Below, one piece after another: positions 14,590 through 60,654 of a DNA stretch of 64,000 nt (position 1 is its first letter; the number at the start of each line of letters is the position of its first letter). The notes below the pieces were generated by a model, which did not search any database, was not told the origin of the DNA, and was given only the letters and a program-made list of their open reading frames with translations. The stretch spans positions 62,001 through 126,000 of the forward strand of contig ML014115.1 of assembly GCA_003615045.1 (NCBI GenBank), written 5' to 3'. The stretch is from Caulochytrium protostelioides (taxonomy: Eukaryota; Chytridiomycota; Caulochytriomycetes; Caulochytriales; Caulochytriaceae). Both the position numbers and the translations under genes were made by a program.

Positions 14590-17500
14590 ATGATCGAGTT
14601 CAAGCCGCTGCGCCTACCGGCGCCGCGGATCTTTTCGCCCGCCCCGCGGTACACGACCCTCGAAGCGGCACATCCGCTGTACGATCTGCCGCCGACGCCG
14701 CCGCCGCCGCCGTACGTCGAGGGCAAAGACCCCGGCGCGCCCCTCGAGCCCGCGCCGCGGCCCGCCGCGGCCGCGGCCGCGTCGGCGCCACCCGGCCCGG
14801 CCCGCCCCTTGAGCCAGGACGAGCAGCGGCGGCTCTATGAGGAAGCGTTCCGCGCGGGCGCCGTCGCGGAGAACGCCAGCGAGAGCGCCTCGTCGTCCTC
14901 GTCGACGCTGGCCGGCGACAACAACACCAGCCGACCCCAATTCGCCGGCAAGCCCGGCGTCTTCTACGGCGCGCCGCTGCCCGAGTCGAAGTTCGAGGCC
15001 GCGCGCCAAGCCGCCGCGGCCGTTGCGCCCATCGATACGCCGATACCGGGAGTGGGCCGGCTCGCGTTCCAGTATGCTGACGAGCAAGCATGGCCGATCG
15101 AGGTCGACGATTTTTACGATTTGCACGACCGCGCGCTCGTGGCGCAGTGTCGCCACGATTTCCTCGAGTGCTTCCATGACGGCGACGAGGAGCGTGCCAC
15201 CGCCACGTGGTGGGATGTGAGCGCCGCGACCCGGAGCGATGTCATCGTGGAGCTGATGGACCTGCTGGAGCGGCAGGACCAGGACGAGCAGGACCGCGCG
15301 GTCCGCGGGTTGCTGTACGTGGCGCAGGGCTGCTATGCGCTGTATGACGACCGCGTCGACGCCTTGATGGACCAGATGCAGACCAACGCCGCGTTACTGC
15401 TGGAGAACAACGTGCTCCCGGCCGTCTCGACGTATCTCCAGGTCGCAGCCGATCAGCTGCGCACCCATCTGGAAGCCGCGCCGCCGGTGTCAACGGCCGC
15501 GACATCGCCCGATCCGAGTCTTGATCGTGGGGCCGCCTCCGCGACCGTGACGGCGGCCGCGACGCCGCCGTCGGGGGATCGTGACTTGCATCGCCATCGT
15601 CCGATGTCGCCCGACGGGACGACCGACACGGATACGTCCACGATCACCACCACGACCAGCGCCACCGATGACGATGACGATGGCGATGGCACCGGCGGTG
15701 CCGAGCGGGCCGCGGCAGCTGAGCAGGCCGCCGCCGAGCATGCCGTGTATCACGCCGTCAAGGAACACATGATGGAGCGGATCACGGTCGCGCTCGGTGT
15801 GCTGTTTCATCTGCTGCTCGACCTGGTTCGGACCAATGCCTGCGAAGCCATGCCGCTCTCAGACGACCTCGTGGCTGTGTCGCCGCTCGTGGCGGTCCTG
15901 TTCCATCTGCTGGGGCACCTCTCGGACGGGTATAAGCGCTCGTCACCGCTCAAGAAGCTCCTGATGGTGATCTGGAAGGCCTTGCTGGCCATCACGGGCG
16001 GCACCCCGCGGCTCACGCGCCTCAAGCGGACGAGCCGCGCGCTCGCCGGACTGGGTGACTTGCCGCCCGGCGAAGCGCTCTACGTGAAAGCTTCACCCGC
16101 CGACTACCAGTACTTTGCATCCATGATCCTGATCCGCTATCCTGCCGTGATCCTGCCCACGCTGGGCGAGCTCCTGCGCCGTTCGGACCCCTTCTTTGCC
16201 CAATTCGATCTGATTACCGTCAGCGGTATGGGCGGCAGCCACGGCGACTCGCAGGGCAGCGGCGGCGACGGCGCTCACGGCGCCGCGGGCGGATCTCACG
16301 CCGATCACGCCGCTGCGCTCGTGCCGGTCGCGCCGCTCGGCGATGCCCACGTCACGGCCGCCATCCAGCGCTCCCTGTCGACGCTGGCCCAGGAAGTCGG
16401 CGAGCCCGTGCACGCGACGCCCGAGTTTATCCAGGACGCGCTGCGCATCTACACGGAGTCGATCTACGTGAGTCTCGGGCGCGTGCAGCTGTTTGAGTCC
16501 CGGCGGGCGCAGCAGCACCAAGCCGCCGCCGCGGCCATCGACGGCCGCCCCGTCTCGTCCGCCGCGGCCGCGGCGGCGTCCGCATCGCCGGCGGCGCCCG
16601 CACACGCGATGCTGCACGACGCGCTGCCGTCGCCGGACGACGCGGACGCGACGCCCGAGACGAATACGCTCTGGTTGATGGACGACCTGTGGGCGCGGCT
16701 CCTGGACGGGTGGCCATCGCACATCGGCCTGCTCGTGCGCTGGCTGTATTACATCAACCTGGGCACGGCGTTGCAGCCGCCGCCTGAGCCCACGGCGCCG
16801 AGCAGCGGCCCAGCCTCCGGCTCTTCCCGGGAGACGTCGTCGGGCGAGGGCGGCTCCGTGTCGGATGAGCAGGCAGCCGCCTTGCTGGAAGCTTACGAGA
16901 TCAAGCGTCACCGCCAAATCGTGACGCGGGTGATCGCGACGATCAGTATGCTGCTACTCAAGATGGCCAAGCGCATGCATGTTTTGCGCTTCGAGTACCT
17001 GTGTCAGCTCTTGATCGACAACAACGGCGCGATCCTGCTGCTGAAGATGCTGAGCATCTGGTTCCAGCCGCTCAATTCTAAGAGCAGCGGGGGCCCCACC
17101 ACGGCCCCGTCTCAGCCTGACGACGTCTACCAGAAGGACAAAGAAATCCTTTTTCGGCAACCGCCGCTGCCACAGTCGCAGTTCACCTTCTACTGCCGGC
17201 GGCCGCCCTATGACCGCCTGGACCTCGATGTGGCGCGTGCGCAAGCCCAGGCCGACGGGTCGCATTCGCCGCTCGTCTCGCCGTCGGCATCGTCGCCGCC
17301 AGCGGCATCATCGAAAGCGCCCGCCGTGGACTTCAACAATATCTGCACGATGATTCATTTGCTGCAGATTCTGCAGAAGCTTACGAAAGGCAAATGCCAC
17401 CGCATTCTCGCGCTGGTTCAGTGGAAGTGCACGACCGTGCTCAAACGCATTCTCCGCGTCGACCAGCCCAGCGTCCAGATCTATGCGCTCAAGCTGCTCA

Positions 17501-18387
17501 AGAGCCAGACCCCGTACCTGGGGCGCAAGTGGCGCATGAACAGTATGCGGGCCATCACGGGCATCTACATCCATCTGCGGCCGCTGCTCGTGGACCGCTA
17601 CCTCTCGGGCGACGCGCAGGCCGTGGCCGAGCTCGCGCTGCGGGAAGAGCAGGCGCTCCGCGCCGTCACGGCCCACTACCACGACACGCTGCGTGCCTAC
17701 CTCGAGGAAGAGCGCGGCCTCGAACGCGCAGCCGCCACCGCCCCGCCGGACCGCACGACCCCAGGCATGGTGGACCCGGGCTCTGACTTGGAAACGGCGC
17801 TCAATGCCGGCGACCACGACGATTTGCTCGCGCTGCTGCCGGACTCACCGTCGCTGGAACGGCCGCGGCCGCGGCCTCGTCGGCCCTCGTTTCATGCTGC
17901 GAGCCCGCGCGATGCGGGCCAGCCGTCGGCCTCGTCCCCGACCTCCTTCGCGTCGTCGGTGTCGTCCTCGTCACTCCATCACCCCAGTATGGCAGACGCC
18001 ATGTCGACCGCCGCCGCGTTCAAGACGAACAAGGCCTGGGTGAATGAGCTCGATGAGCACTTCCAGGAAAACTACGAGACCTGGCTGCAGCAGGAAGTGT
18101 TTGCCGACAGCGGCCTCGGGGATACCTTCCAAGCGGACCACGTGGTCGATGCGCCGTGGCTGGGCGCCGCGCTGGGCCACCCCCCAGCCGGCGGCGCGGA
18201 GGCGGCCGCCGTCGCCCATCCGGCGGACGACGATACGGACTCCATGCGCAGCTGGGACGGCATCATGGCCGACGAGCTCAACTGGTATGCCGCGCAGAAC
18301 CGGCCCGACACGGGCCATGAGCGCGAAGTGCTGGATCCGGACGGCGCTGACGCCGCGTCCGAGCTGATCCCTGCCGAAACAGTCTAA
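14590..18387 (+). CDS. STRIP/Far11 homologue, STRIPAK scaffold
   Basis: STRIP (FAM40; Far11 in yeast) is a scaffold of the STRIPAK PP2A-kinase complex, which dephosphorylates MST-type kinases and controls cell polarity and fusion. The 1265-residue product begins at the ATG at 14590; the upstream open frame has no ATG. Diagnostic segments are FYDLHDRALVAQCRHDFLEC and LLYVAQGCYALYD (N1221 domain, from about 165), DDLWARLLDGWPSHIGLLVR (about 697), LRFEYLCQLLIDNNGAILLL (about 800), and the highly conserved HLLQILQKLTKGKCHRIL then VQIYALKLLKSQTPYLGRKW (about 920-980). It ends in LDEHFQENYETWLQQEVF plus an acidic tail. Ala/Ser-rich insertions make it longer than animal STRIP (about 830). Intron-free as read. 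Confidence 0.93.
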   Translation: MIEFKPLRLPAPRIFSPAPRYTTLEAAHPLYDLPPTPPPPPYVEGKDPGAPLEPAPRPAAAAAASAPPGPARPLSQDEQRRLYEEAFRAGAVAENASESASSSSSTLAGDNNTSRPQFAGKPGVFYGAPLPESKFEAARQAAAAVAPIDTPIPGVGRLAFQYADEQAWPIEVDDFYDLHDRALVAQCRHDFLECFHDGDEERATATWWDVSAATRSDVIVELMDLLERQDQDEQDRAVRGLLYVAQGCYALYDDRVDALMDQMQTNAALLLENNVLPAVSTYLQVAADQLRTHLEAAPPVSTAATSPDPSLDRGAASATVTAAATPPSGDRDLHRHRPMSPDGTTDTDTSTITTTTSATDDDDDGDGTGGAERAAAAEQAAAEHAVYHAVKEHMMERITVALGVLFHLLLDLVRTNACEAMPLSDDLVAVSPLVAVLFHLLGHLSDGYKRSSPLKKLLMVIWKALLAITGGTPRLTRLKRTSRALAGLGDLPPGEALYVKASPADYQYFASMILIRYPAVILPTLGELLRRSDPFFAQFDLITVSGMGGSHGDSQGSGGDGAHGAAGGSHADHAAALVPVAPLGDAHVTAAIQRSLSTLAQEVGEPVHATPEFIQDALRIYTESIYVSLGRVQLFESRRAQQHQAAAAAIDGRPVSSAAAAAASASPAAPAHAMLHDALPSPDDADATPETNTLWLMDDLWARLLDGWPSHIGLLVRWLYYINLGTALQPPPEPTAPSSGPASGSSRETSSGEGGSVSDEQAAALLEAYEIKRHRQIVTRVIATISMLLLKMAKRMHVLRFEYLCQLLIDNNGAILLLKMLSIWFQPLNSKSSGGPTTAPSQPDDVYQKDKEILFRQPPLPQSQFTFYCRRPPYDRLDLDVARAQAQADGSHSPLVSPSASSPPAASSKAPAVDFNNICTMIHLLQILQKLTKGKCHRILALVQWKCTTVLKRILRVDQPSVQIYALKLLKSQTPYLGRKWRMNSMRAITGIYIHLRPLLVDRYLSGDAQAVAELALREEQALRAVTAHYHDTLRAYLEEERGLERAAATAPPDRTTPGMVDPGSDLETALNAGDHDDLLALLPDSPSLERPRPRPRRPSFHAASPRDAGQPSASSPTSFASSVSSSSLHHPSMADAMSTAAAFKTNKAWVNELDEHFQENYETWLQQEVFADSGLGDTFQADHVVDAPWLGAALGHPPAGGAEAAAVAHPADDDTDSMRSWDGIMADELNWYAAQNRPDTGHEREVLDPDGADAASELIPAETV

Positions 18388-44908: not shown

Positions 44909-45073
44909 GTCCTTCCGGAGCCGCGCGTGCCTGACGGTGACCGGTCTGCCGGTGCCTGCCGCTCCCGTCGATCTCCGTCTGCGGGGCCCACGGACCGCCG
45001 TGCCGAGCGCTATGGCCGCCGCTGCCGCCCGCTCGAGCCCCGCCGCCGCTTCGTGATCGCTCCCATCCTTGTT

Positions 45074-45109
<36 letters not shown>

Positions 45110-45293
45110 CATCGCCGCTGCCGCCGCCGCCGCCGTGGGCTCCCGTCGATCCGACTGCCGCGCGCCGCCGTCCCCACGCGCGCCCAGCGGCGCCGCCGCC
45201 CACGGCCACGAGTCCGACGATCCCCTGCGAGACGGTTCGACACGCCGGCCGGCCGTCCAACGCTCCGACGGCCGCGGCGGTCGCCCTCGCAGC

Positions 45294-45297
<4 letters not shown>

Positions 45298-45342
<45 letters not shown>

Positions 45343-45355
45343 TCGGCGTCGGTGG
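45298..45355. repeat. (GGCGTC)n hexanucleotide repeat
   Basis: Roughly nine tandem GGCGTC units with one GGCATC variant, upstream of the kinase start. Confidence 0.85.
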
Positions 45356-45556
45356 TCACGGGCGCCGGCCGCCGCCTCGGCCGCCGCTGCCGTCTCGGGT
45401 GTCCACTCCCCATCGGTCAGTGCTGTCATTGGCGCCACGGCGCTCGGCGGTCACTCAAGATCACGAGCGCCGCCGATCGATTGCAGGGCCGCTTCCCCAC
45501 GTGCGCGGCATCGGCAGCGCGCGGCCTCGGTGCGGCGCCGTCGTGCCAGTCGTGCC

Positions 45557-48500
45557 ATGACGGGTCCGCTGCAAGCGCCGCTGGCCGTGCCTCACGCCGG
45601 CCCTGCCGACGCCCCCGCGCACGACGTCTCGTTAGCTGCTGATCCTGCTGCTGATCCTGCGGCTCCTGCGGCTGCTCCTGCGGCTGTCGACGCCGACGCC
45701 GCTCTCGCGGCCTCGCCGGATACCTCGGCGCCACTGCCGACGGCGGGCCCGCCACGGGCGCCACCGACCCAGACGCGTCCCGCCCCGCCGTCGTCCCGAT
45801 CCCACCGTCAGCGCCTCCCGTCGCGGACCGCTGCGTTCGGCGGGAGCAGCCGGGATCCGGCCGCCATGGCCGCTGCCACCGCTGCCGCCGCCGCCGCCGC
45901 CGCCGTGGCCGCCGTCTACGTCGACCGCACGCCCGGGCGCCATCCACGCGCCCAGACGCCGGTCGCCGCCACGCATGCGGCCGCCGCCGCGACCGCCGTC
46001 GCCATGATGGCATCGATGGCGCTCCCGTCGTCACTGCACCGGCCGCTCGACCGGCCAGGGCACGTCCCAAGCAATGCCCAAGGGCCATCGTCGTCGGCCG
46101 TCGCCGCCGCCGCCGCTGCTGCCGCCGCCGCCGCCGCCGCCGCCGGTGCCCATGACCCCGTCCGCCGGGATTACCTCCAGACGCCGCCCGACCACCACGA
46201 TCTCGCATGGACGTCCTCCGGTGCGCTGCTCCCGTCTTCGGCGCCGCCCACGGCCGGCGCCGGCGCCAGCGCCGGAATCGCCGCGTCCCCACGACCCGCG
46301 AGCGTCCGCCACGGCCACGGCCAAGGCTATGCTGCCGTCGGCGCCGGCGGCCGCGGTCAGCACGCGCACCCGGCCCCACCCAACCCGCCGCCGCCGCCGT
46401 ACCCCAGCGTCCGGGCACCGCCCGGCTGGCCCGACGCCGATCGTCCGGTGATCGACGAGCACGGCGGCGCCTTCAGTCCGAGCAGCAGCAGCTTCCCCTC
46501 GACCGGCGGGCCACGCTCGAGCCTCGGCGGCGCCGACGCCCCCACCGCGTGGCCTCCGACCCCCTCGCTGCACGGGTCCGCCGCGTACGGCGCCGCGGGC
46601 GGCGGCCACGGCGAGCGTCCTCTCGGCGGCACGCGGGTCGGCAGCCAGCCGCATCCGTCAGCGCCCGTCACGGTCCTCTCGCCCGCGACTTTGCCGCCCT
46701 ACCACGGCCCCTCGTGCCCGACGGGCTCGCCGACGGCGCTCACGCTCTACGATGCCCCCTGGATGCGCGGCCCAGCCGCGGGCACCGGCATCACGGTCGG
46801 CGCGGCCGCGTACCCGCTCGGATCCGACCGCCCGCCCGCCACGCCGAGCCACCACGGGCTCGACGACTCGCCGTGGTTCGCGTCCTACCACCACGCCTCC
46901 CCCGCGTCCATCGTCGCGTATAGCGCACCGAGCGCCGCCGCCAGCGCCGCCCACTACGGCCTGATGCTGACGCCCTACGGCGGCCCCATGGCCGATCCCA
47001 TGCTGGCGCTGGCCGGCGCCTCTGGCCCTGCCGTCGCGTCGCTCGGCCTCTCGTCTCCCGTCATGGACGGCATGCCGCGCCACGCGCCCGCCGCCTATGC
47101 CGCGCCTCCGGGCGTCCCGGCGTTCGGCTCGCCGTACCTGCCCACTGCCGGCGCCCAAATGGCGGCGACGCCGATGCGACTACCCAGCGATGCGACGCCC
47201 CACCGCAAGCCCGAGCTCGCCACTCGGTCCGCACGCACGTCGACAGGGATGGTGCCCTCGTCGCTGTACCGCCCGTCCGAGCCCCTGGCCGCCGTCGCGG
47301 GGACCCTCGTGGACGTCGGGCGGATGCTCGCGATGCCGTCGCCGGACGGGTTCGTCGGACGCGGACAGAGCCCCGTCCTCGGTCCGGCCGGCGGCGGCGC
47401 GCTCGCATCGCCGGGGCCCACCCCGAGACTGGCGCCGCCCCGCCCGCCGTACGGCTACCCGCACGGCTCGCCGGGCGACACGGGGTACTGGGACCGCGGG
47501 CGCTCCGCTCGGCGGCGGCCGCCGCCCGCGGTCGCTATGGCGACCGCGACGCTGATGCTTGACGACGCCGACGACGTCGCCGGTAACGGTGAGATGGAGG
47601 CGCGGCCGGACCCGGCGGCTCTGCTGGACTCGCCGGTCGGGCCAGGATCGCACGGCCGCACCTGGTATCCGGGGCACCGTCCGTATGCCTCCTATGCGGC
47701 GGGATCCGGCAGCGGCACGAGCTTCGGCATGATGGGCGGGCCCGTGTCGACCCCCATCATGGCGCAGCCCCTCTCCTGCCCCTCCACGCCCGGCGGCAGC
47801 ATGCGCTATGTCCGCCGCCCCATGCCGCCGCCGCCGCTGTCCGCCCACGACGACGCACTCGTGTCCCCCGGGTTCTCGTACGTCTGGCAGGGCGCGCCCA
47901 TGTATGCGGCGCCGCCGGGCCAGACGCCGTCGATGACGACGGCGTTCGGCACCCCAATGGCGACGGCGCCGCCCGCGTTCCCGCCGCTGTTCCCGCCGCG
48001 GCTCGCGATGCCGGACGCGCGGCAGCGCTTGCTGCATCACACGCTCTCGCCCGAGCTCGAGTTTGGCTTCGGTCTGCACACGGGCAAGCCCCTCGCCGAT
48101 CCGGGAGGAGGCTCCGTCTTCTGGCCCGTGTCGGCGGGCGCCGCGGGGGTCTCCTTGGCGTCGCTTCGGCCCGAGGCGACGACGCCACGTGGGTGGTTTA
48201 TGCCGCCGCCGCCGCCACCGCCGGCCCCCGGGGCGGCAGCCGTCGATACGCGGGCATGGCCGCCGCTCGACCCGTATGGGGGCCACCACCCGGCGTCGGA
48301 CCCGATCTTGGGATCGACGGCGTTCCCGCCGTTGCCGGCGCCGCCGGACCACGGCGGGGTCGTTGACTCTCGCACCGGCGCTCTCTCCGCAGCGCATCAT
48401 GCGCCACCGACGACGGCGGCGGCGCCGCCGCGTCCGCAGGCGCCGCCGGCGTCGTCGTCGTCGTCGTCGACGCAAGTGCCGCTGCTGCCGATGCATCACT

Positions 48501-51211
48501 CGCTTGCCTCGCGCCCGTCGCACCATCACCACGGCCACCACGGCCACCCCCTGCACGCGCACCCTCCGCACCACGACTCGCCACTCGCCACGCCGCTCGT
48601 CTTCCCGCCGCCGCAGACGTATCTCGGAACGGGCTCGGCCGGCCATGCGCTCAGCTCCTGCACGTCGTCGGTGTTCGACTCGGACGCGTCCTATGAGCTG
48701 TCAGCGCCGCGCACGCCGGTGCTGACGACGCTCGGCAAGCGGCCCTACGACGCTGTCCGCGGTGGCGGCGGCGGCGACGAGCACGATCGAATGGCGACCA
48801 TGTCAGCGTCGGCGCCGTCGTTGCCGTCCGCCGGCCCGCTCAGCCACACGGGTCTGTCGTCGCTCGGGACGAAGCGGTCGCGGTACCCCTCCGCCAGTGA
48901 GACGTCACATGCGCCGTCCTCGCGTGCAGGCGCCGACCGGTCGCCCCTAGGCGGGCCCGCCCGCGCCTCGCGGCTGAAGCCCGCCTCGCCGAGCGTGGTC
49001 GAGATCTCGGACGAGGACGACGCTGCGCCACCCGCCCAGCGCGCCCGCCATGACGGCCACGGCGGCGGACGGCCGCCGGTACATCGCGACCACGCGGCCG
49101 CCGCCATCTCGCCGCAAGACCCCAAGCGGGGTGCCGCCGCCGCCTCGTCGTTGCAGCTCCCGCCGCCGCCGCCGCTGCACCCGTCCTCCTCGGCGCCCGC
49201 GGCCTCGTCCGCGGGACAGCCGTGGAGCTTGACGGACGCCGATGGGCATATGCGCGTCCGCGACAAGATGATCCTGCGCGAGCCTGCGTTAAGCGCCGTC
49301 AAGCCGCGCAGCGACCTGCGCCGTCCGGCACACGGCGCCGCTGCCGCTGCCGCCGCCACCGATCTCCTCGGCAGCGACCCGATCGTGCGGCACGGCACAG
49401 GCGCGGTGTACCGACTAAGTATCGTGCTAGGCCAGGGCACGTTCGGCAAGGTGGTCCGCGCTTACCGCATCGACCGCACCGCCGCGTGGCAGGCCGCCGC
49501 GTCGCGCCGCAGCCAGCGTGCCAGGCGCCTGCGCTGGCCGCCAGGCGACCACGAGCTCACCGGGCATGAGCAGATCAGCCCGACGCACTCCTTGACGCCG
49601 GAGCGTGGTGACGACGTGCCGCTCCGCCCCGACCTGCCGTACTTGCGCATTAAGGGGCAGCTCGTCCCGTACGATGAACCTGTGCCGTCCTCAGGGGGCG
49701 GGTCGTCAGGCCTCGAGCTGGTGGCCATCAAGATCGTTCGCAACATCCCGAAGTACCGGGAGGCCGCGGCGCAGGAGATCCGGCTGCTGATGCATATGCA
49801 GCAGCAGCAGCGTCCCGGCACGAAAGCCCTCAACATTCCGCTGCTGTCGTGGTTCGACTACCAAGGCCATATCTGCATGGTGTTCCCGCTCTTGGCCACG
49901 TCGCTCTTTGATTTCGTCAAGAGCAACCACTTCACGCCGCTGCCGCTTGCGCATATCCAGTCGCTGGCCCATCAGATGTTTACCAGCGTCGCGCTCCTCC
50001 ACGATTTGCAGATCATCCATACTGACCTCAAGCCCGAGAACATGATGCTCACCTCCTACGTGGGCCACCCCTATGTGCTGCCGCAGCGCCCAGCGCCCTC
50101 ACGACGTGCCGGCAGTGGTGGGAGCGCGAGCGGAAATGGGAGCCGCCATCGTCACAGCCAGGGTCATCACCCCGGCGCCGATCAAAGTCATGGCGGCGGC
50201 AGCGCCAGTCGTCCGAGCAGCGCCACGCAGAGCGGGATGGCGGCATACCGCGAGGCCATGCGATGTGCTGGATTCGAGGCGTATGATGAGCACATGTATA
50301 CGGAGCTGCTGCTGCTCAAGAAGCACCGCGTGAACCCTGCGGAAGTGCCGACGATGCTGGCGCATACGGATCTGACGGTGATCGACTTTGGATCGGCCAT
50401 CTTTGAATCGCAGTACCACGCGTCGGTCGTCAGCACGCGCCACTACCGCGCGCCTGAGATCATTCTCAACCTCGGGTGGTCCTTCCCGTGCGACATTTGG
50501 TCCCTCGGCTGTATCCTCGTCGAGCTGTTCACGGGCGAGACGCTGTTCCCCTCCCACAACAACATCCACCATCTGCACCTCATGCAGAACGAGTGTGGGC
50601 CGCTGCCCTACCGCATGGGCCAAGCGCACCACCGCTTTGTCCAGCGCACCCAGGAGGCTCAGCGCCAGAACGCGCGGACGACCACGGGCACCACGGCAGC
50701 CTCGGCGACCACGAGCACCGGTATCACGACGACGACGACGACCACCTCCACGGCCGTGGCGACGGCTACGGCTGCCAACGCGGCTCGACCCGGCGTCGCC
50801 CCGAGCGACGCGGCCGCCGACCCGTGGCCGCTCACGCAGTGGGACGGCACGCTGTGCCCGGTGCCGCGGCCGGCGCCGTCGGACCCGCGGCGCGGCAAGT
50901 CGGCGTGGGACGGCCGCCCGCCGGCGCGCGAGATGCTCCGCGTCAGCCGGACCGAGGAGGCCGCCCAGCTCGCCGATCTCGTGCGCCACTGCCTCATGAT
51001 GGACCCGGCGCGGCGGTGCACGGCGAAACAGGCGCTAGCGCATCCCTTCTTCCGGTGCGTGCTGCGGCCGCCGCTCGCGGGCGCCGGTCTGGGTCCTAGT
51101 GGCGAGATGGCGGGGCCCGGCCACGCCATGCCGCCGCCGCCGCAGGTGCCCTTTGCGCGGATGGCCGAGATTCTGGAGGACGGCGACCATCTGGGCCCAT
51201 GGACCGTCTAA
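45557..51211 (+). CDS. CLK/LAMMER-like dual-specificity kinase with 1280-residue disordered N-terminus
   Basis: CLK/LAMMER kinases phosphorylate SR splicing factors in the nucleus. The 1884-residue product starts at the first ATG, 45557. Residues 1 to about 1280 are Pro/Ala/Ser/Gly/His-rich with Tyr-Gly patches and no domain. The kinase domain (about 1285-1835) shows YRLSIVLGQGTFGKVV, VAIKIVRN, IIHTDLKPEN (Thr before catalytic Asp1490, as in CLKs), VIDFGSAIFE, VVSTRHYRAPEIILNLGWSF and PCDIWSLGCILVELF, all CLK-type. The LAMMER signature EHLAMMERILG is replaced by HHLHLMQNECG at 1671-1681. Insertions occur between beta-2 and beta-3, before the DFG segment, and after CGPLP. DYRK or PRP4 kinases are less likely, because STRHYRAPE-ILNLGWS with a Thr in HTD is the CLK pattern. 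Confidence 0.88.
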   Translation: MTGPLQAPLAVPHAGPADAPAHDVSLAADPAADPAAPAAAPAAVDADAALAASPDTSAPLPTAGPPRAPPTQTRPAPPSSRSHRQRLPSRTAAFGGSSRDPAAMAAATAAAAAAAAVAAVYVDRTPGRHPRAQTPVAATHAAAAATAVAMMASMALPSSLHRPLDRPGHVPSNAQGPSSSAVAAAAAAAAAAAAAAGAHDPVRRDYLQTPPDHHDLAWTSSGALLPSSAPPTAGAGASAGIAASPRPASVRHGHGQGYAAVGAGGRGQHAHPAPPNPPPPPYPSVRAPPGWPDADRPVIDEHGGAFSPSSSSFPSTGGPRSSLGGADAPTAWPPTPSLHGSAAYGAAGGGHGERPLGGTRVGSQPHPSAPVTVLSPATLPPYHGPSCPTGSPTALTLYDAPWMRGPAAGTGITVGAAAYPLGSDRPPATPSHHGLDDSPWFASYHHASPASIVAYSAPSAAASAAHYGLMLTPYGGPMADPMLALAGASGPAVASLGLSSPVMDGMPRHAPAAYAAPPGVPAFGSPYLPTAGAQMAATPMRLPSDATPHRKPELATRSARTSTGMVPSSLYRPSEPLAAVAGTLVDVGRMLAMPSPDGFVGRGQSPVLGPAGGGALASPGPTPRLAPPRPPYGYPHGSPGDTGYWDRGRSARRRPPPAVAMATATLMLDDADDVAGNGEMEARPDPAALLDSPVGPGSHGRTWYPGHRPYASYAAGSGSGTSFGMMGGPVSTPIMAQPLSCPSTPGGSMRYVRRPMPPPPLSAHDDALVSPGFSYVWQGAPMYAAPPGQTPSMTTAFGTPMATAPPAFPPLFPPRLAMPDARQRLLHHTLSPELEFGFGLHTGKPLADPGGGSVFWPVSAGAAGVSLASLRPEATTPRGWFMPPPPPPPAPGAAAVDTRAWPPLDPYGGHHPASDPILGSTAFPPLPAPPDHGGVVDSRTGALSAAHHAPPTTAAAPPRPQAPPASSSSSSTQVPLLPMHHSLASRPSHHHHGHHGHPLHAHPPHHDSPLATPLVFPPPQTYLGTGSAGHALSSCTSSVFDSDASYELSAPRTPVLTTLGKRPYDAVRGGGGGDEHDRMATMSASAPSLPSAGPLSHTGLSSLGTKRSRYPSASETSHAPSSRAGADRSPLGGPARASRLKPASPSVVEISDEDDAAPPAQRARHDGHGGGRPPVHRDHAAAAISPQDPKRGAAAASSLQLPPPPPLHPSSSAPAASSAGQPWSLTDADGHMRVRDKMILREPALSAVKPRSDLRRPAHGAAAAAAATDLLGSDPIVRHGTGAVYRLSIVLGQGTFGKVVRAYRIDRTAAWQAAASRRSQRARRLRWPPGDHELTGHEQISPTHSLTPERGDDVPLRPDLPYLRIKGQLVPYDEPVPSSGGGSSGLELVAIKIVRNIPKYREAAAQEIRLLMHMQQQQRPGTKALNIPLLSWFDYQGHICMVFPLLATSLFDFVKSNHFTPLPLAHIQSLAHQMFTSVALLHDLQIIHTDLKPENMMLTSYVGHPYVLPQRPAPSRRAGSGGSASGNGSRHRHSQGHHPGADQSHGGGSASRPSSATQSGMAAYREAMRCAGFEAYDEHMYTELLLLKKHRVNPAEVPTMLAHTDLTVIDFGSAIFESQYHASVVSTRHYRAPEIILNLGWSFPCDIWSLGCILVELFTGETLFPSHNNIHHLHLMQNECGPLPYRMGQAHHRFVQRTQEAQRQNARTTTGTTAASATTSTGITTTTTTTSTAVATATAANAARPGVAPSDAAADPWPLTQWDGTLCPVPRPAPSDPRRGKSAWDGRPPAREMLRVSRTEEAAQLADLVRHCLMMDPARRCTAKQALAHPFFRCVLRPPLAGAGLGPSGEMAGPGHAMPPPPQVPFARMAEILEDGDHLGPWTV

Positions 51212-51685: not shown

Positions 51686-52561
51686 TCAGAGGATCGTGCA
51701 TTTTTCCTTCTTGACGCCCTCATTGGACTCGTCGCCGGTCATGTAGTAGCCTTCCTTCATCCACGTGGCGAGGATGTTGTAGACAGCCTCCCAGGCCCAG
51801 TCGATCTCGGGGCTCCACGTGCCGTCGGCGAGCATCCACTCGCGGACGGTGGCCGTCAGGCTGCGCCCGACGGCATTGTACATGGGCGGCGTCACGCCGT
51901 ACACGGCGTGGTGCTTGTACCCGAGCCGCCGCACGACAGGCCGCAGCTTCATGAGCTTGTCCACGTCCTTCACCACCTTCTCGAGCAGCCCCGATAGCGC
52001 CGAGCTCTGCTTGCCGATGTCGCTGAACATCGGGCGCAGGTACGGGCTCTGGTCCAGCAGATGCGTGTAAAACGCATACGTGAACAGCATCGCGGGGCTC
52101 AGCGCGGCGTCCGCGGCCGTGACGGCGATGCTGGCCTCCGCGACCGACACGCCCTCGGCGGCACCCGGGCCGCCGCTCACGACACTGGCGGCATCGGTGG
52201 GCCCGCCGGCTCCGGCGCCCGGCATGGCCAGGCCGAACGGCGCGCCGTGCGCGGCGGCGGCGGCGGCGGCGGCCCCCGCGGCGGGCGTGCCGACGGCGGG
52301 CGGCGGGACCGTCACACCCACGGGCCCGCCCGACGTCGGGTAGTACGGGACGACGGGCCGCCGCGAGCGGTTCGGGTCGGTGATGATGCGCCACGACTCG
52401 CGGATCACCATGCAGTCCTTCTCGGTCGGGAAGACGTAGCCCTCGTTGCCCTTCTTCTTGTGGCTGCGCAGGACGCGGCCGAACGAGCCGAGCGCGCCCG
52501 ACGAGCGCGAAAAGGAGGCGCCGGACGCCGGCGGCGGCGGCGCGCCTATGCCGGAGTCCAT
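51686..52561 (-). CDS. Globin with predicted C-terminal CAAX prenylation site
   Basis: A 291-residue single-domain globin without a reductase module. The A helix contains RESWRII (Trp57). An insertion of about 90 residues, Pro/Gly/Ala-rich, separates it from the B helix. Then come FTYAFYTHLL (Tyr165 at B10), YLRPMF (Phe179 at CD1), KQSSALSGLL (Gln185 at E7), and RRLGYKHHAVYGVTPPMYNA, where His218 lies four residues before Gly-Val, the position of the proximal F8 histidine. The H helix contains WAWEAVYNILATWM. Tyr-B10/Gln-E7 is the flavohaemoglobin-type pocket associated with O2 and NO chemistry. The C-terminus is KKEKCTIL, a CAAX box ending in Leu (geranylgeranylation type) with basic residues upstream, suggesting membrane attachment. 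Residue assignments come from eye alignment with bacterial globins. Confidence 0.87.
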   Translation of the reverse strand: MDSGIGAPPPPASGASFSRSSGALGSFGRVLRSHKKKGNEGYVFPTEKDCMVIRESWRIITDPNRSRRPVVPYYPTSGGPVGVTVPPPAVGTPAAGAAAAAAAAHGAPFGLAMPGAGAGGPTDAASVVSGGPGAAEGVSVAEASIAVTAADAALSPAMLFTYAFYTHLLDQSPYLRPMFSDIGKQSSALSGLLEKVVKDVDKLMKLRPVVRRLGYKHHAVYGVTPPMYNAVGRSLTATVREWMLADGTWSPEIDWAWEAVYNILATWMKEGYYMTGDESNEGVKKEKCTIL

Positions 52562-52620: not shown

Positions 52621-52658
52621 GCGGCAGCAGCGGCGGCAGCAGCGGCGGCAGCAGCGGC

Positions 52659-52694
<36 letters not shown>
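52621..52694. repeat. (CAG)n/(CGG-CAG)n triplet tract
   Basis: About 74 bases of GCGGCAGCAGCG units passing into pure CAG, located 60-133 bases upstream of the globin ATG, so probably in its leader or promoter. Confidence 0.85.
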
Positions 52695-52696
<2 letters not shown>

Positions 52697-53304: not shown

Positions 53305-53405
53305 CACCCGCACCCGCACCCGCACCCGCAGCAGCAGCAGCAGCAGCAGCAGCCGCAGCAGCAGCAGCAGCAGCTCTCCAGCAGCAGCAGCTCTCCAGCA
53401 GCAGC
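53305..53405. repeat. (CACCCG)n followed by (CAG)n
   Basis: Four CACCCG-like units run directly into about 75 bases of interrupted CAG repeat. No supported reading frame uses it. Confidence 0.8.
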
Positions 53406-54368: not shown

Positions 54369-57300
54369 CTACGGCTCTTCGGCATAGAGCGTCCGCGACG
54401 GGACGCCCTCCACGCGGTCCGGATAGAGCGCCGACGGCATTGGTCCAATGGTCGCATGCTTGACGGCGCCGACGCCGCTCAAACCCATGGCGGCGCCGCC
54501 CCCCGCGGTCCGCGGAGCGGCCGGCGCTACCCCCTTCGGCGACCGCCGCGGGTTCAGCGACGACGTCCACGGGAGCCGGCTCACCGCGTCCGAGGACCAC
54601 GCGCGGCGCACGTGGTGCATGGCGGCCGCATGGCCGCCCGCGCCGCCGGGCGACGCGGGGCCGTCGCCCGCGTCCCGGCCGTCGTCCGAGCGCTCGGCCG
54701 CGCCGTCCAGCGTCAGGGACGTGATGCTGTCGCAGGACTGGCTCGCGCCGCGCCGCCCGAGCGGGCTGCCCGCGTCGCTGCCGTCGTCGGCGCCGAGCCG
54801 CGCCGGACCCAGGCTGCCCGGCGGCCGCTGCGCGGGGTGACGCCCGAGGGACGCGCCGTCGTCTGCGTTCGCGTCCACCCCCGGCGGCACATGGTGTCCG
54901 TGGTGGTGGTGACGGTGGTGGTGGTGGTGGTGGTGGTGACGCGGGGCGACGGGCGCGGGCCCCTTCTTGTGGGGCGACGCCGACGCCGTGGCGAAAGGCG
55001 CATGGTAGGCGGGCGGCGGCGGCGGCGGCGCGTGGCTGCGGTGGTGCCCGCGCAGGGCGCTGCCGTCGCGGCGCAGCGCGGACATCGGCACCCGCGTGCC
55101 TGGGAGCCAGAAGGGGCCGTCGTCCTCGTCGTCCGTCACGTTGCCGCCTATCATCCGAGACGGCCGCGCATGCCCATGACTGTGACCTTGGCTAAGGCCG
55201 CCGTGCGGCGACGGCGGGTTCGCATGCGCCAGGTGGCCATGGACACGAAGGCCTGGCGGCGCGCTCTGCGGGCCGCCGCCATGCGGACCCGAGCCGCTGC
55301 TGCCGCTGCCGCTGCCGCTGCCGCCCATCCGGAACTCCTTGGTGACGCCGTACTCGGACTCGCTACCGCTGCTGTCGGCGCTGTCGTAGCCGAGCGTCAT
55401 GCTGAACGGCCGGTGGGGCATGCTCAAGTGCGGCGGGAGGACCGCCGGCGCGCGATGTGGCGACGTCCGCAGCAGCGGGAGATAGACAGCGACGCCGACA
55501 CCCATCGTGTTCGGCCGGTCCTGGCCGCCATGGCCGCCGTGGCCGCCGTGGGCATGGCTCGCGTGGTCGCGGCTCGCCGACTCGAAGCCGAGCCCCAGGG
55601 TCGGCCCCGAGAGGGCGGCCGCTTGGTTGGCGGCCGCGATGGCGGCGATGCGCGGTGGCGTCGTGAGGCCCGGACGGATAAAGCACGCGCGCGCGGCGCG
55701 CGCGCACTCGATGGCGTAGTTGGCGCCGCCTAGGCTGTCCCAGTGGGACTGGCCATCGACGTCGTAGCGGACCGCGAACTGCAGAAAGATGCTCGGCGCC
55801 GTCGGCGGCAGCGGCAGCGGCGCGACCGCCGACCGCAGCCGCGACGTCCGCAACGCCAGCGCGTCGAACTGAGGCTTCAGGTCCAGGTGGAACATGAAGC
55901 GGTCGATATCGGGCGCGGAGTTCAAGGCCGCGTCCGACGCGTAGACGCTCCCGACGCCGCCGTTGATCGAGCCCGCGGACGACGCGACCACGGGCGCGCT
56001 GTCCCCGCCTGTGCCCGGTGACGCATAGGGCAGCGACGAAGTGATCCCGCCGTTGAACGCCAGACTGCCCATGGGGGGCGCCGGCGCAGTCGACGTGGGC
56101 GTCGCGTGGCCGTGATACTGCGCGTCGATATCCTCGTGCGTGGCCCAGTCGTCCCAGGTATACCGCACGGTGACGTGTTTGTTGTACGCAACGTTGCGGA
56201 CATCGACCCAGCCGAGCAGGGTCGTGCCGTGGTCGAGCTGCAGCCGCGACACCTGGAGCATGCCCGGGAAGTCGCGGGCGACCTGCGGCGCCGCGAGGTC
56301 GTCCGTGGCCAGCGCCTCCAGCACGGCGGGCGCGCGATGAATCACTAAGCACGGCTCGAGCGGTGCCGGCTCGAGCAGATCCTGGCCCAAGTCCTGCAGC
56401 ACGAACGTCGGGCTCTCCAGCACGTCGCTCGGCTGCGAGCCGCGCTCAAACAAACAGACTTTGCTGAAGGCGTCGGCCGAGAACCGCACCGACTTCTTGG
56501 CCGTCAGCGGCGCACTGGAAGCGGCTGCTGCGGCCGCGGCTGTCGCCGCCCCCGTCGACGGCGTCTCCAGGGCCGCCGCCGCCGCGAGTGCGATACTGTC
56601 GTTGAAGGCGTCGTCGGCGGTCGCCAAGCGAACGCTCACATGGGTCGGCTCGTCCGAGCCCAACACGAGCGCGGCGGCGGCGGCGGCGTTGGGCCCCAAC
56701 GGCAACAGCGGCGGCGTCTCGACGTCCAGCACGAGCTCGGCCACCAGGGCCGGCACGGGCGACAACGCCACGGCGGCCGCCACCGCGGGCGAGAGCGCGG
56801 GCCCCGGCGCCGCCGCCGCGGGCGGCAGCGGCACATCGGTCACCACCCCGTGCTCGGGCACGACCGACGGCACGGCCGGCATCCACGCTTTGTCGCGGGC
56901 CGGGTCCAGGCCGGGCAGCGGGCTCCCGTCCGGCGCGGAGGCCGGCGCGAGGGTCGCCGAGGATGCGGCGGACTCGGTGCCGGTCGTTGTGACCGGCGGC
57001 CCGTCGGCGGGCGCGCCGTCCGTCGCCGCCGCGATGTGGAGCCGCGGCGGCGCGGCGTCGGCCAGAGGCGCGTCCCCGGCCGCATCGAGGCTCGCCGCGT
57101 GCTCATGATCGGCCGACGCCGGCACGGACGCCGGCGTTGCCGACGCCGGGCCCTCGGCCGCTGCATGGTCCGCCAGCGTCGTCAGCTCGTGGTCGGCCGG
57201 GACGAGAGTGACGGAGGACAGCGGGTCGAGGGCGCTCATCGCCTCGGGCGCGAGTCCCGTCGTGACAAGCGGCGCCGTCTGGAGAGGGTGTCGGGCGCTG

Positions 57301-59753
57301 ACGGCGGCCGCCGCGGCCGCGGCGCCGTCGGTCGTCGGAACGACGGTCGGGTCCGCCTCGCGGCGCGACTCGCTGCCAGCCTGCTGGCAGCGAGTGTCGC
57401 TGCCCGAAAGCGCCGCCTCCGCGTCCACGGTGGCCTCCGCATCGGCGTCGTGGTCGCCGGCAGCGTCGTCGGGGACCACGGCGGCCGCGGCGGCAGTGGC
57501 GGCGTCCGCGCCGGCGGGGCGCGCGTACATCACGACGTCGACGGCCACGGCGACGCGGTCGTCACGGACGGCATCGCCAAGGGCGGAGTCGGAGTCGGAG
57601 TCGGAGTCGGAGTCGGAGTCGGATCCGGCGGACGAGGACGAGGACGACGGCGGCGACGCGGTCACGTCGCCGTCAACGTCACCATCGCCATCGGCGCTGT
57701 CGGACGCCGCCGCCGCGCGGCCAAAGGCGCCGGTCGCCACCGCGAGCCCGTCGTCGTCCTGAACGTGGTGGGCGAGCTCCATGTCGCCAAGAAGGATCCC
57801 GTTGACGCCCAAATCGGTGAGATCATCGCCCGTCTCGGCCGCATCATCGTCCTCGTCCTCTTCGTCACGGCCATCGTCGGTCCCCGCCGCCGCGTCGCCA
57901 TCGGCCTCGTCGTCCAAGCTGTCAGGGGCGTCGTTGGCGAGCGGCGTGGCGGACGCCCGACGACACGCCATGTGATGAGCGTCGGCGGTCCGGTGGCCGA
58001 GGTTGAGATCGATCTCGTGGGAGATGAGCTGCATGTCGGTGCCCTTTTCAAAGATGAGCGTGATGGACGGCCGACGGAGGCTGGACGTGGACGCCACCGC
58101 GTCCGTGGCGCCCGCGCCGGCGCCCGCGCCATGCATCCCGTCGCCCGCCCGCCCGAGGTCGAGGGTGTTGCCGCCGCCGCCGCGCCCGTCGTGGCCGTCG
58201 TCGGCGTGGCGCACCTCGTACATCGCATCATAGAGGGCGCTCAGGTCGGGCGCGGGCTTGGCGGACGGCTTGACCGTCTTGGGCGACGACGGCGACGACG
58301 TGGTCATGGCGGCGACGGCGCCGAGGGCCTCGAGCATCTGGGACTGCGCCGACGGCGTTGGCCGAAGCAGCGCAAAGTCGCGGAACGCGTGCGGCGGGAG
58401 CGACGAGGAGAGCGGGCCGCCTGGCGGGTCGTGGGCGCCCTCGCTGCCAACGCGGGAGGCCCAGGGCCGCTCAGCGCGCTCGCCACGGTCGCCGCGCTCG
58501 CCGCCGGCCATCGGAATGGCGGGCGACGGCGCATGCGTGCCTTGCAGCCGCCGCGCCGTCGCCGGGGGCAGCTCGATCTCGGAGAGCGAGTGGCGGTGCC
58601 GGCGAAGCTTGGAGAGCGAGGCTTCGTCGCACTCGTTCAAGTGATACGTGACGGGCACCACGGGCCCGTCCTCGGGCTGGCTGGCGCGCGGGTGATGGTG
58701 GTGGTGATGATGATGGTGGTTCGAGTGGGCCAAGCGGCCGTCCATGTCATCGTCGCCGCGGATCCGCGCAGGCACGCGGTCATGGCCTTCGTAGGCCTCG
58801 TCCGCGTCGCCATCATCCTCGTCGTCGCCGTCGTCGTCGTCATGGAGGAGGCTACGGCCGTCCAGATCGCCGACGGCGCCGTGCAGCGGCGGCGGCAGCG
58901 TCACGCTAGCCAGCAGCGGCGATCCGCCGCCCGTGAGGGAGCCCGCATGGCTCACTTCTGAGGACGGCAGCGAGCTGGCGTGGCTATAGCCGTGACCGTG
59001 GGTCGCATAGGCTCCCTCGAGCGTCTCCGACGACGACGCCGACGGCGGCAGCGCGCGGACCGCCGTCGGACTCATCGGCAGCCGCAGCGGCACAATGAAC
59101 CGGAGCAGCGTCGATGCAACCGACGGCGACGCGGTCCCAGCGCCGCCCCCACCGCTCGTCGGGGCCGCTGAGGCCGAGCGCGCGGCCGAGCCGGGAGGGG
59201 CAGCGGCGCCCGAGGGCGGCGAGCGCGTGCCGCCCGACCGGCTGGCGCGCGCATCGCGGGCACGGCGGTGGGCGGGCGGCTTGGCGCGCGCGTCGTGCAG
59301 CGCCATCGTGTCACTCGCCCGGCGCGCCGACCGCAGGCCTGCGCCCGCGACGGGTGCCGCCAGCGCGGCCGTCACGGGCGCCGTCGGCAGCGCGGACGCC
59401 GAGGAGGCGAGGAGGCCGGCGCGCTTCCCGCCGCGCCGAGAAGACGGCAGCGGCGTCTCGTCGGCCGTGGAGGAGGTCGAGGGCGGTGAGGGCGGCGGCT
59501 GGCCGTGCCAGCGGCCTGCCCGGTCGGCGGCGGCGTGGCCAGCGGCGCTGCCGTTGGTGAGGCCGTTCGCGACCCCGATCGCCGCGGGACCGCCGCAGCC
59601 GTTGGACTTGAGGGCGCGGGACAGGGCCGAGACGGGCGGTGGCGGATCGCCATGGAGGGCGTTTGGCGGCGGCGCCGCCGCGGGGGCGGCTGCGACGGCG
59701 ACGGCGACGGGGTCGCTGTGGCCGGAGCCGTCCTCGTTAGCCATGGCGGGCAT
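54369..59753 (-). CDS. PP1 glycogen-targeting regulatory subunit (RVxF + CBM21), very large
   Basis: Proteins of the PPP1R3/Gac1 type bring protein phosphatase 1 to glycogen, activating glycogen synthase. The 1794-residue protein starts at the ATG at 59753 (MPAMANEDGSG), with a second ATG three codons on. A canonical RVxF docking motif, KKSVRFSADAFSKVCLF, sits at 1086-1102. A CBM21 carbohydrate-binding domain follows at about 1155-1350: PGMLQVSRLQLDHGTTLLGW, VAYNKHVTVRYTWDDWATHE and FAVRYDVDGQSHWDSLGGAN, with a roughly 75-residue insertion in the middle. The rest is low complexity: a Ser-Asp repeat, two poly-His tracts near 58700 and 54910, and Ala-rich segments. Its enzyme partner in the pathway, debranching enzyme, is also in this window but 42 kb away. 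Confidence 0.88.
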   Translation of the reverse strand: MPAMANEDGSGHSDPVAVAVAAAPAAAPPPNALHGDPPPPVSALSRALKSNGCGGPAAIGVANGLTNGSAAGHAAADRAGRWHGQPPPSPPSTSSTADETPLPSSRRGGKRAGLLASSASALPTAPVTAALAAPVAGAGLRSARRASDTMALHDARAKPPAHRRARDARASRSGGTRSPPSGAAAPPGSAARSASAAPTSGGGGAGTASPSVASTLLRFIVPLRLPMSPTAVRALPPSASSSETLEGAYATHGHGYSHASSLPSSEVSHAGSLTGGGSPLLASVTLPPPLHGAVGDLDGRSLLHDDDDGDDEDDGDADEAYEGHDRVPARIRGDDDMDGRLAHSNHHHHHHHHHPRASQPEDGPVVPVTYHLNECDEASLSKLRRHRHSLSEIELPPATARRLQGTHAPSPAIPMAGGERGDRGERAERPWASRVGSEGAHDPPGGPLSSSLPPHAFRDFALLRPTPSAQSQMLEALGAVAAMTTSSPSSPKTVKPSAKPAPDLSALYDAMYEVRHADDGHDGRGGGGNTLDLGRAGDGMHGAGAGAGATDAVASTSSLRRPSITLIFEKGTDMQLISHEIDLNLGHRTADAHHMACRRASATPLANDAPDSLDDEADGDAAAGTDDGRDEEDEDDDAAETGDDLTDLGVNGILLGDMELAHHVQDDDGLAVATGAFGRAAAASDSADGDGDVDGDVTASPPSSSSSSAGSDSDSDSDSDSDSALGDAVRDDRVAVAVDVVMYARPAGADAATAAAAAVVPDDAAGDHDADAEATVDAEAALSGSDTRCQQAGSESRREADPTVVPTTDGAAAAAAAVSARHPLQTAPLVTTGLAPEAMSALDPLSSVTLVPADHELTTLADHAAAEGPASATPASVPASADHEHAASLDAAGDAPLADAAPPRLHIAAATDGAPADGPPVTTTGTESAASSATLAPASAPDGSPLPGLDPARDKAWMPAVPSVVPEHGVVTDVPLPPAAAAPGPALSPAVAAAVALSPVPALVAELVLDVETPPLLPLGPNAAAAAALVLGSDEPTHVSVRLATADDAFNDSIALAAAAALETPSTGAATAAAAAAASSAPLTAKKSVRFSADAFSKVCLFERGSQPSDVLESPTFVLQDLGQDLLEPAPLEPCLVIHRAPAVLEALATDDLAAPQVARDFPGMLQVSRLQLDHGTTLLGWVDVRNVAYNKHVTVRYTWDDWATHEDIDAQYHGHATPTSTAPAPPMGSLAFNGGITSSLPYASPGTGGDSAPVVASSAGSINGGVGSVYASDAALNSAPDIDRFMFHLDLKPQFDALALRTSRLRSAVAPLPLPPTAPSIFLQFAVRYDVDGQSHWDSLGGANYAIECARAARACFIRPGLTTPPRIAAIAAANQAAALSGPTLGLGFESASRDHASHAHGGHGGHGGQDRPNTMGVGVAVYLPLLRTSPHRAPAVLPPHLSMPHRPFSMTLGYDSADSSGSESEYGVTKEFRMGGSGSGSGSSGSGPHGGGPQSAPPGLRVHGHLAHANPPSPHGGLSQGHSHGHARPSRMIGGNVTDDEDDGPFWLPGTRVPMSALRRDGSALRGHHRSHAPPPPPPAYHAPFATASASPHKKGPAPVAPRHHHHHHHHRHHHHGHHVPPGVDANADDGASLGRHPAQRPPGSLGPARLGADDGSDAGSPLGRRGASQSCDSITSLTLDGAAERSDDGRDAGDGPASPGGAGGHAAAMHHVRRAWSSDAVSRLPWTSSLNPRRSPKGVAPAAPRTAGGGAAMGLSGVGAVKHATIGPMPSALYPDRVEGVPSRTLYAEEP

Positions 59754-60654
59754 GAGGCGAGGACCGAGCGCCGTCGACCGTCCGTCACCGCCGTGAATGG
59801 CGTTGTGGCGAGGCTCCGAAGGCGGCGTCGCCGCGACGACGAGGACGACGACGGCAGCGGCAGCGGCAGCGGCAGTCGTGGCGATAGCGACGGCGACGGC
59901 GGTGGCGGCAGCAAAGGGATCAGATCAGGCAGCAGTAGTCGGCGGCACAACGGTCCGTGGGGCCCGCCGCAGAGGGCGCACCGAGCCCCGGTAAGGCCCG
60001 GGCCTGCCGCGCCTGCCGGTCGTCGCGGACACGCGCGTCTCGGGTCGTTGGGTCGCAGCCGCCACGGCCGGTGGGCTGCTGATGCGTGCGATGACGGTCG
60101 CCAGGACTCTAAACGGGGGGCGCTGCACGGCTCGATGCGTTGCCACGGTTCGAGCTGCAAGCCGTTGATCTTCGAGCCGTTGATCCTGGCTCGGCGAGAA
60201 ACCAGTGATCAGAAGCGCGATCACAGGCAGCCCTCGTCGACAGCAACCGCCAGATCGTTCAGCGATCGTCCATACGCTGGGGAGGGGATGGAGGCGGAAC
60301 GCGGAAAATCGGTCGATCGCTCCTGGCGCGTCGGAAGGGGTGCACGGTATCGCTGGAATTGCTGGAAATCGCCGGAAATCGCTGGGATCACGGCCCAACC
60401 CGCGTCGTCTACGACCGGCACTCGATCGCCCGATCGTGGTCTACTTTCAGAGCATACGGAGGCCACGCCCAGACAATCCGATGTGACGTCGCCTGCGGAT
60501 CGACGGAACCGAACAGCAAGATCGCGGGCGATCCCAACCGCTGCCGAACAAAGGGCGCCCTCTGGCAGATCGCCTGTCAATGAGGATGGGTCGGAAGGTT
60601 GCGCTGGGCCCAAGACCGCATCAGCGATCAGGATCGACGGATGCCCGTGGCGAC

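Follow-up and report, generated by a model that had tools for sequence, protein, structure and literature searches.

A stretch of 64,000 nucleotides from the chytrid fungus Caulochytrium protostelioides (positions 62001-126000 of contig C5 in an assembly of 20.9 Mb and 337 contigs; hereafter the window) encodes P0001, a single-domain globin of the F family that ends in a conserved CAAX box, a putative prenylation signal. On balance we lean towards reading P0001 as a prenyl-anchored globin that consumes nitric oxide (NO) at a membrane together with a separate reductase, for example cytochrome b5 and cytochrome b5 reductase. The computations covered the gene, the globin family and fold, the haem pocket, the absence of a reductase domain, the conserved CAAX box, the prenylation genes and the candidate reductases.

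The globin gene was found on the minus strand as one uninterrupted frame of 291 residues running from 52561 to 51686 (Table 1). An earlier reading of the window made from the letters alone (the sequence-only reading) had placed a globin at exactly this interval and left the strand unstated; the plus-strand reading of the interval differs from the globin. The Pfam Globin domain PF00042 matched residues 164-265 (E 2.6e-8, 34.8 bits against a curated cut-off of 22) and was the sole Pfam match in the frame, which stops 16 residues past the globin part. As the sequence-only reading had stated, no reductase domain binding FAD or NAD(P)H was found in it. The frame starts with Met-Asp, and that of its homologue P0002 with Met-Ser, so that both are without the Met-Gly site for myristoylation.

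P0002, from the chytrid Polychytrium aggregatum, was the sole homologue found across three protein searches. The first found P0001 and P0002 among the 7990 best-word-sharing candidates scored (more candidates existed), the second, with P0002 residues 86-222 as query, returned P0002 alone from 10 candidates, and the third, with alignment A2 as query, returned P0001 and P0002 from 686; all three rely on shared five-residue words, so distant orthologues can escape. The two proteins share 36% identity over the BLASTP alignment. Helices B-H (residues 154-275) account for 62 identities in 122 residues, the region around helix A for 10 in 23 and the tail for 7 in 11; of the four CAAX residues the Cys alone is identical. 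Both proteins are built in the same order, with a brief N-terminal part bearing R-x-HK, then Y-V-x-P-T, helix A, an insert, helices B-H and a KEKC-aaX tail. A scan of bacteria with HGbI (Hell's Gate globin I) and HGbRL gave 592 pattern matches and no relatives. A scan with the core gave 51 pattern matches and two relatives, and the chytrid profile was matched by both of their source genomes (2 of 2); alignment with these two laid the bacterial A helix over the insert of P0001.

The pocket was assigned by alignment with Escherichia coli Hmp, HGbI, HGbRL, Yhb1 and Vitreoscilla haemoglobin (VHb), all but Hmp as aligned pieces. The Hmp position names used here are in part those that we take to be current, and H23 is presumably a triad member. 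The distal and proximal residues of P0001 were Tyr165 (B10), Gln185 (E7), Leu189 (E11), His217 (F8) and Tyr228 (G5), in agreement with the Tyr in FYTHLL, the Gln and the His that the sequence-only reading had placed at B10, E7 and F8. Further assigned residues were Phe164 (B9), Phe179 (CD1), Ala188 (E10), Lys216 (F7) and Val231 (G8). All ten positions were identical in P0001 and Hmp, and P0002 matched Hmp at each of them except F7, which is Arg. Thus P0001 carries the flavohaemoglobin set of Tyr-B10, Gln-E7, Leu-E11 and Lys-F7, and the F8 His and CD1 Phe expected of a globin are kept in P0002. His218 was considered as the proximal ligand and rejected, as P0002 has Ala there and F8 falls on His217 in profile alignments; in favour of His218, its spacing to Tyr-G5 is the canonical one, and the gap of single-sequence alignments adjoins it. 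Compared with Hmp, the CE loop lacks four residues, which leaves a gap at E2, and H23 is Tyr272 in P0001, Ala204 in P0002 and Glu in Hmp.

The sequence-only reading had called this a flavohaemoglobin-type pocket, a description that finds no support in this form. Judged from the aligned sequences, the Tyr-B10/Gln-E7 pair is a pocket belonging to the F family at large, reductase-free globins included, and is no mark of flavohaemoglobins because it also occurs in HGbI, VHb and the globin domain of HGbRL. HGbI (3s1i) was the top Foldseek match of the P0001 model, and by sequence profile HGbRL and HGbI matched first, followed by the yeast flavohaemoglobin and then VHb. The available part of one study names E11, G8, E2, E7, B10 and F7 in Hmp and gives the role of E2 (PMC7948479). 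Bacterial globins without helix D are described as conserving both Tyr-B10 and Gln-E7, and HGbI as binding O2 with very high affinity while autoxidising little (PMC4476040).

Structure modelling gave a 3/3 globin fold with helices A-H. Five models were made, the best with a mean predicted local distance difference test score (pLDDT) of 53.7 and the others ranging from 45.3 to 32.5; in the best model the B-H region scored 59-81 in blocks of ten, with helices at residues 156-171, 173-178, 182-198, 200-221, 225-246 and 251-272. Between helices A and B lies the insert of 90 residues (64-153), which is probably disordered according to the model. The sequence-only reading had regarded such an insert after the A helix as unusual. 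Its length was correct, and P0002 also has a long insert at the matching site, of dissimilar sequence (8 of 53 aligned positions identical).

An unspliced intron would offer another explanation of the insert. The guanine-plus-cytosine content (GC) at codon positions 1/2/3 was 0.64/0.55/0.94 over the whole frame and 0.82/0.74/0.94 over residues 65-154, against about 0.67/0.60/0.67 in the 600 bases upstream and about 0.58/0.56/0.58 downstream; by this comparison the entire frame, the insert included, looks coding. A scan confined to donor and branch motifs gave three donor-like GTRNGY matches (nt 241, 382 and 483) and a single branch-like CTRAY match at nt 703, far 3' of the insert. The donor-like matches at nt 241 and 382 fall within the insert and count for an intron. 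A retained intron appears unlikely, because the homologue carries its insert at the equal position; the coding-type GC and the want of a CTRAY match near the insert end point the same way.

The C-terminus of P0001 reads KKEKCTIL, with Cys288 four residues from the end, just as the sequence-only reading had noted. P0002 (1 of 1 homologue found) has a CAAX box as well, as CSVM rather than CTIL: KEKC is kept and TIL is replaced by SVM, both endings being legal in CaaX. Only two Cys occur in P0001, Cys50 and Cys288, and both are kept in P0002. From the residue frequencies of seven coding frames of the window (5294 residues), the chance of a terminal CaaX in one protein was 0.2% by a broad definition and 0.03% by a strict one. 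According to the available text of PMC10320760, Ile or Val at a2 and Leu or Met at X are permitted, a yeast Ras reporter shows a preference for Ile in the a2 position and for Met as X, and endings in L, F, M or I are held, citing others, to be likelier targets of geranylgeranyltransferase I (GGTase-I). Taken together, the sequences suggest that the CAAX anchor is very probably real. The sequence-only reading went further, deriving geranylgeranylation from CTIL with basic residues upstream. CTIL and the rule for Leu at X stand, as does a GGTase-I in the genome, but the basic stretch proved weak (net charge +2 over six residues and 0 over ten ahead of Cys288; 0 and -3 in P0002), and since Met is the last residue of the homologue, either a farnesyl or a geranylgeranyl group may be attached. 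Because of this weak charge, any second membrane signal would lie outside the tail; an N-terminal basic patch (RSHKKK, and RNHKR in P0002) may help membrane binding.

The genome search for the prenylation machinery covered the beta subunits, Rce1-like and ICMT-family genes, and detected all three classes. Three prenyltransferase beta genes were found: L002 is a farnesyltransferase beta (best solved match, E 1.1e-110), L004 a GGTase-I beta (best solved match, E 6.7e-41), and L003 is presumably, by exclusion, the Rab-type beta. An Rce1-like gene and an ICMT-family gene are also present. The farnesyltransferase beta gene (C1:163677-164753) and the ICMT-family gene (C1:180156-180425) lie on one contig with about 15 kb between them.

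In a six-frame search of the genome, PF00042 matched only this globin, and an intron-split globin could escape such a search; PF01152 and PF11563 had no matches. No flavohaemoglobin is therefore seen that could do the job. The NAD-binding reductase domain gave eight matches, and none of the eight open frames bearing it contained a globin domain when scanned. By its best solved match (2eix, E 1.9e-69), L005 is an NADH-cytochrome b5 reductase; L006 and L007 share its two main domains, and L008 resembles NADPH-cytochrome P450 reductase. The cytochrome b5 domain gave 15 matches, of which some could be exons of a single gene. In smooth muscle cells, cytoglobin, also a single-domain globin, is reported to be re-reduced mainly by cytochrome b5 and its reductase (PMC7948950), which gives a precedent for the preferred mechanism.

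A full-length NO synthase-like frame of 1454 residues was observed on contig C326 (6187-10548; L018/L019), with NOS, flavodoxin, FAD and NAD domains. The contig has a GC of 55% and the frame a GC at third codon positions (GC3) of 0.56. For comparison, GC3 was 0.77-0.92 in nine window frames with a Pfam match, a biased set since these had been preselected for GC3 excess; the Pfam-matched kinase frame next to the globin (44927-51208) failed that selection. On larger contigs, GC3 is 0.65-0.70 in some long open frames. Among eight of the small contigs C305-C333, sampled over their first 4-6 kb, five were at 55-60% GC and three above 70%, two classes that could reflect a mixed assembly or a mosaic genome. 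C326 could be of foreign origin or a region of low GC within this genome, and it is not used as support here.

The preferred mechanism would proceed as follows. After translation, P0001 would bind haem, as the fold and His217 suggest. Cys288 would then be prenylated, probably with a geranylgeranyl group, the residues TIL removed and the new end methylated, consistent with the CAAX box and the enzymes present, and the globin would be held at the cytosolic face of a membrane. By analogy with HGbI, Tyr165 and Gln185 would bind O2 tightly, and by analogy with Hmp (PMC7948479, available part), NO would react with the bound O2 to give nitrate. A separate membrane reductase, for example NADH-cytochrome b5 reductase with cytochrome b5, would re-reduce the haem. 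Given the anchor, the sequence leaves NO dioxygenation with about an even chance of being the main function; given that function in turn, the cytochrome b5 pair as electron donor would be a similarly balanced proposition.

Several points count against this mechanism. Prenylation, the lipid attached, the membrane, the dioxygenation of NO and the source of electrons are all predicted. The Gln-E2 and Glu-H23 of flavohaemoglobins are without counterpart in P0001, and its FG corner has one extra residue compared with Hmp. The structure model is of middling confidence, and the known members of the CAAX globin group number two. As the tail is not strongly basic, the membrane hold may be weak or transient. 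The HNOB domain of haem-NO-binding guanylate cyclases had no match in the genome, so that no route of NO signalling is apparent.

The main rival keeps the anchor and makes P0001 a membrane-bound sensor of O2, redox state or NO, in which a partner protein or lipid reads the haem state and the A-B insert or the tail relays it. We regard this as a tentative possibility, given that the protein has no output domain, that no signalling gene is linked to it (its neighbours being a kinase and a CBM21 protein), and that the insert through which the signal might pass shows little sequence conservation (8 of 53 aligned positions identical). The anchored haem could instead reduce lipid hydroperoxides or protect the bilayer, roles that have been suggested for globin X and cytoglobin, and the related HGb-I does bind lipids (PMC11203436, available part). 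The same text reports no lipid peroxidase activity for HGb-I, which has an equal distal pair, and the P0001 pocket seems better suited to O2 and NO chemistry, which makes this role quite improbable. Finally, CTIL might be a coincidence and the globin soluble in the cytosol, as the availability of two sequences only, the weak basic region and the predicted nature of the prenylation would allow; with P0002 also ending in CaaX, KEKC kept, and a chance of 0.03-0.2% per protein, coincidence is unlikely.

Table 1. Features of the globin gene and its upstream flank, in window coordinates.
Feature	Coordinates	Strand	Remarks
Globin open frame P0001	51686..52561	-	ATG 52561, TGA 51688-51686
Helix A	52379..52423	-	Residues 47-61; model helix; aligned with P0002; holds conserved Cys50 and Ser-Trp
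Insert between helices A and B	52103..52372	-	Residues 64-153; low-complexity; pLDDT < 50 at 66-152
Globin helices B-H	51737..52099	-	Residues 155-275; model helices and identity with P0002
Tyr165 (B10)	52067..52069	-	Pocket alignment
Gln185 (E7)	52007..52009	-	Pocket alignment
His217 (F8), proximal ligand	51911..51913	-	Kept in P0002; aligned with F8 of Hmp, Yhb1 and HGbI
Tyr228 (G5)	51878..51880	-	Pocket alignment
CAAX box Cys288-Thr-Ile-Leu	51689..51700	-	P0002 ends KEKC-SVM
GCA/CTG repeat	52621..52695	not assigned	60 bp upstream of globin ATG, outside 51686..52561

The leader or promoter of the globin gene would contain the about 24 CTG-like units of the repeat at 52621-52695, and a second GCA/CTG repeat occurs in the window at 53328-53391. 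The globin is flanked by a large open frame on the plus strand (44927-51211), two stretches of which match a kinase domain, and by the CBM21 protein on the minus strand (54372-59924); nothing ties either to the globin. A glycogen debranching enzyme (7583-12313, minus strand) shares the window with the latter, whose CBM21 module is of the glycogen/starch-binding kind. A kinase with an Mst1 SARAH domain (2-1732) and a protein with N1221 and DUF3402 domains (14389-18384), which we take to be of the Far11/STRIP type, lie less than 13 kb apart on the plus strand. Proteins of these two types work together in STRIPAK/Hippo signalling elsewhere.

Among known globins, HGbI and related bacterial single-domain F globins are close in build, sharing with P0001 one globin domain, no reductase and a short CE loop. 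HGbI has the same Tyr-B10, Gln-E7, Leu-E11, His-F8 and Tyr-G5 and ranks first in Foldseek and second by profile after HGbRL. However, the solved HGbI chain is without a CAAX tail or A-B insert, its FG corner is one residue shorter, and it has Lys at E10 where P0001 has Ala188. Flavohaemoglobins (Hmp and Yhb1) share the distal pocket residues and Lys-F7; P0001 differs in being without the FAD/NAD reductase domain and without Gln-E2 and Glu-H23 as in Hmp, and in adding the CAAX tail and the A-B insert. Single-domain F globins of Mucoromycotina, compared by description, resemble P0001 in being fungal members of the F family with N- and C-terminal extensions (PMC3287990). In the available part of that 2012 census of 165 fungal genomes, single-domain F globins are reported in Mucoromycotina only and chytrids with S and T globins, whereas P0001 is a single-domain F globin in a chytrid.

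Lipid-anchored single-domain globins, as P0001 is predicted to be, are known from globin X and other N-acylated animal globins (PMC3176823, PMC7457136). Globin X is hexacoordinate (PMC3176823), N-terminal acylation anchors animal globins (PMC3176823, PMC7457136, PMC3520999), and a myristoylation site is predicted in a cryptomonad globin (PMC4101818). The globin X type carries N-terminal myristoyl and palmitoyl groups, whereas P0001 has a C-terminal prenyl signal and starts with Met-Asp. No prenylated globin was found among the titles and abstract beginnings listed by term searches of the open-access literature, subscription papers being mostly outside that scope. Words starting with "prenyl" or "farnesyl" ("isoprenyl" uncounted) do not occur in PMC3176823, PMC7457136, PMC3520999, PMC4101818 or PMC7771090. 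As far as found, a prenyl anchor is a lipid anchor not previously reported for globins. The novelty suggested by the sequence would thus be not a lipid-anchored globin as such, but another lipid at the other end of the protein in another kingdom.

We tentatively envisage that chytrids have a globin family prenylated at the C-terminus, in which the cell's only globin, a reductase-free member of the F family whose A-B loop is variable and disordered, would act as a membrane NO sink beside a separate b5-type reductase, possibly shaping the NO from the NO synthase-like protein. If prenylation of P0001 is true, prenyl would be a third route for anchoring globins by lipid, besides myristoyl and palmitoyl. 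N-terminal acylation has been the basis for arguing that membrane anchoring is the ancestral state of animal globins (PMC7457136, PMC7771090, available parts). If a zoosporic fungus prenylates its globin, another kingdom would have reached such a solution independently, and a general requirement for globins at membranes would gain support.
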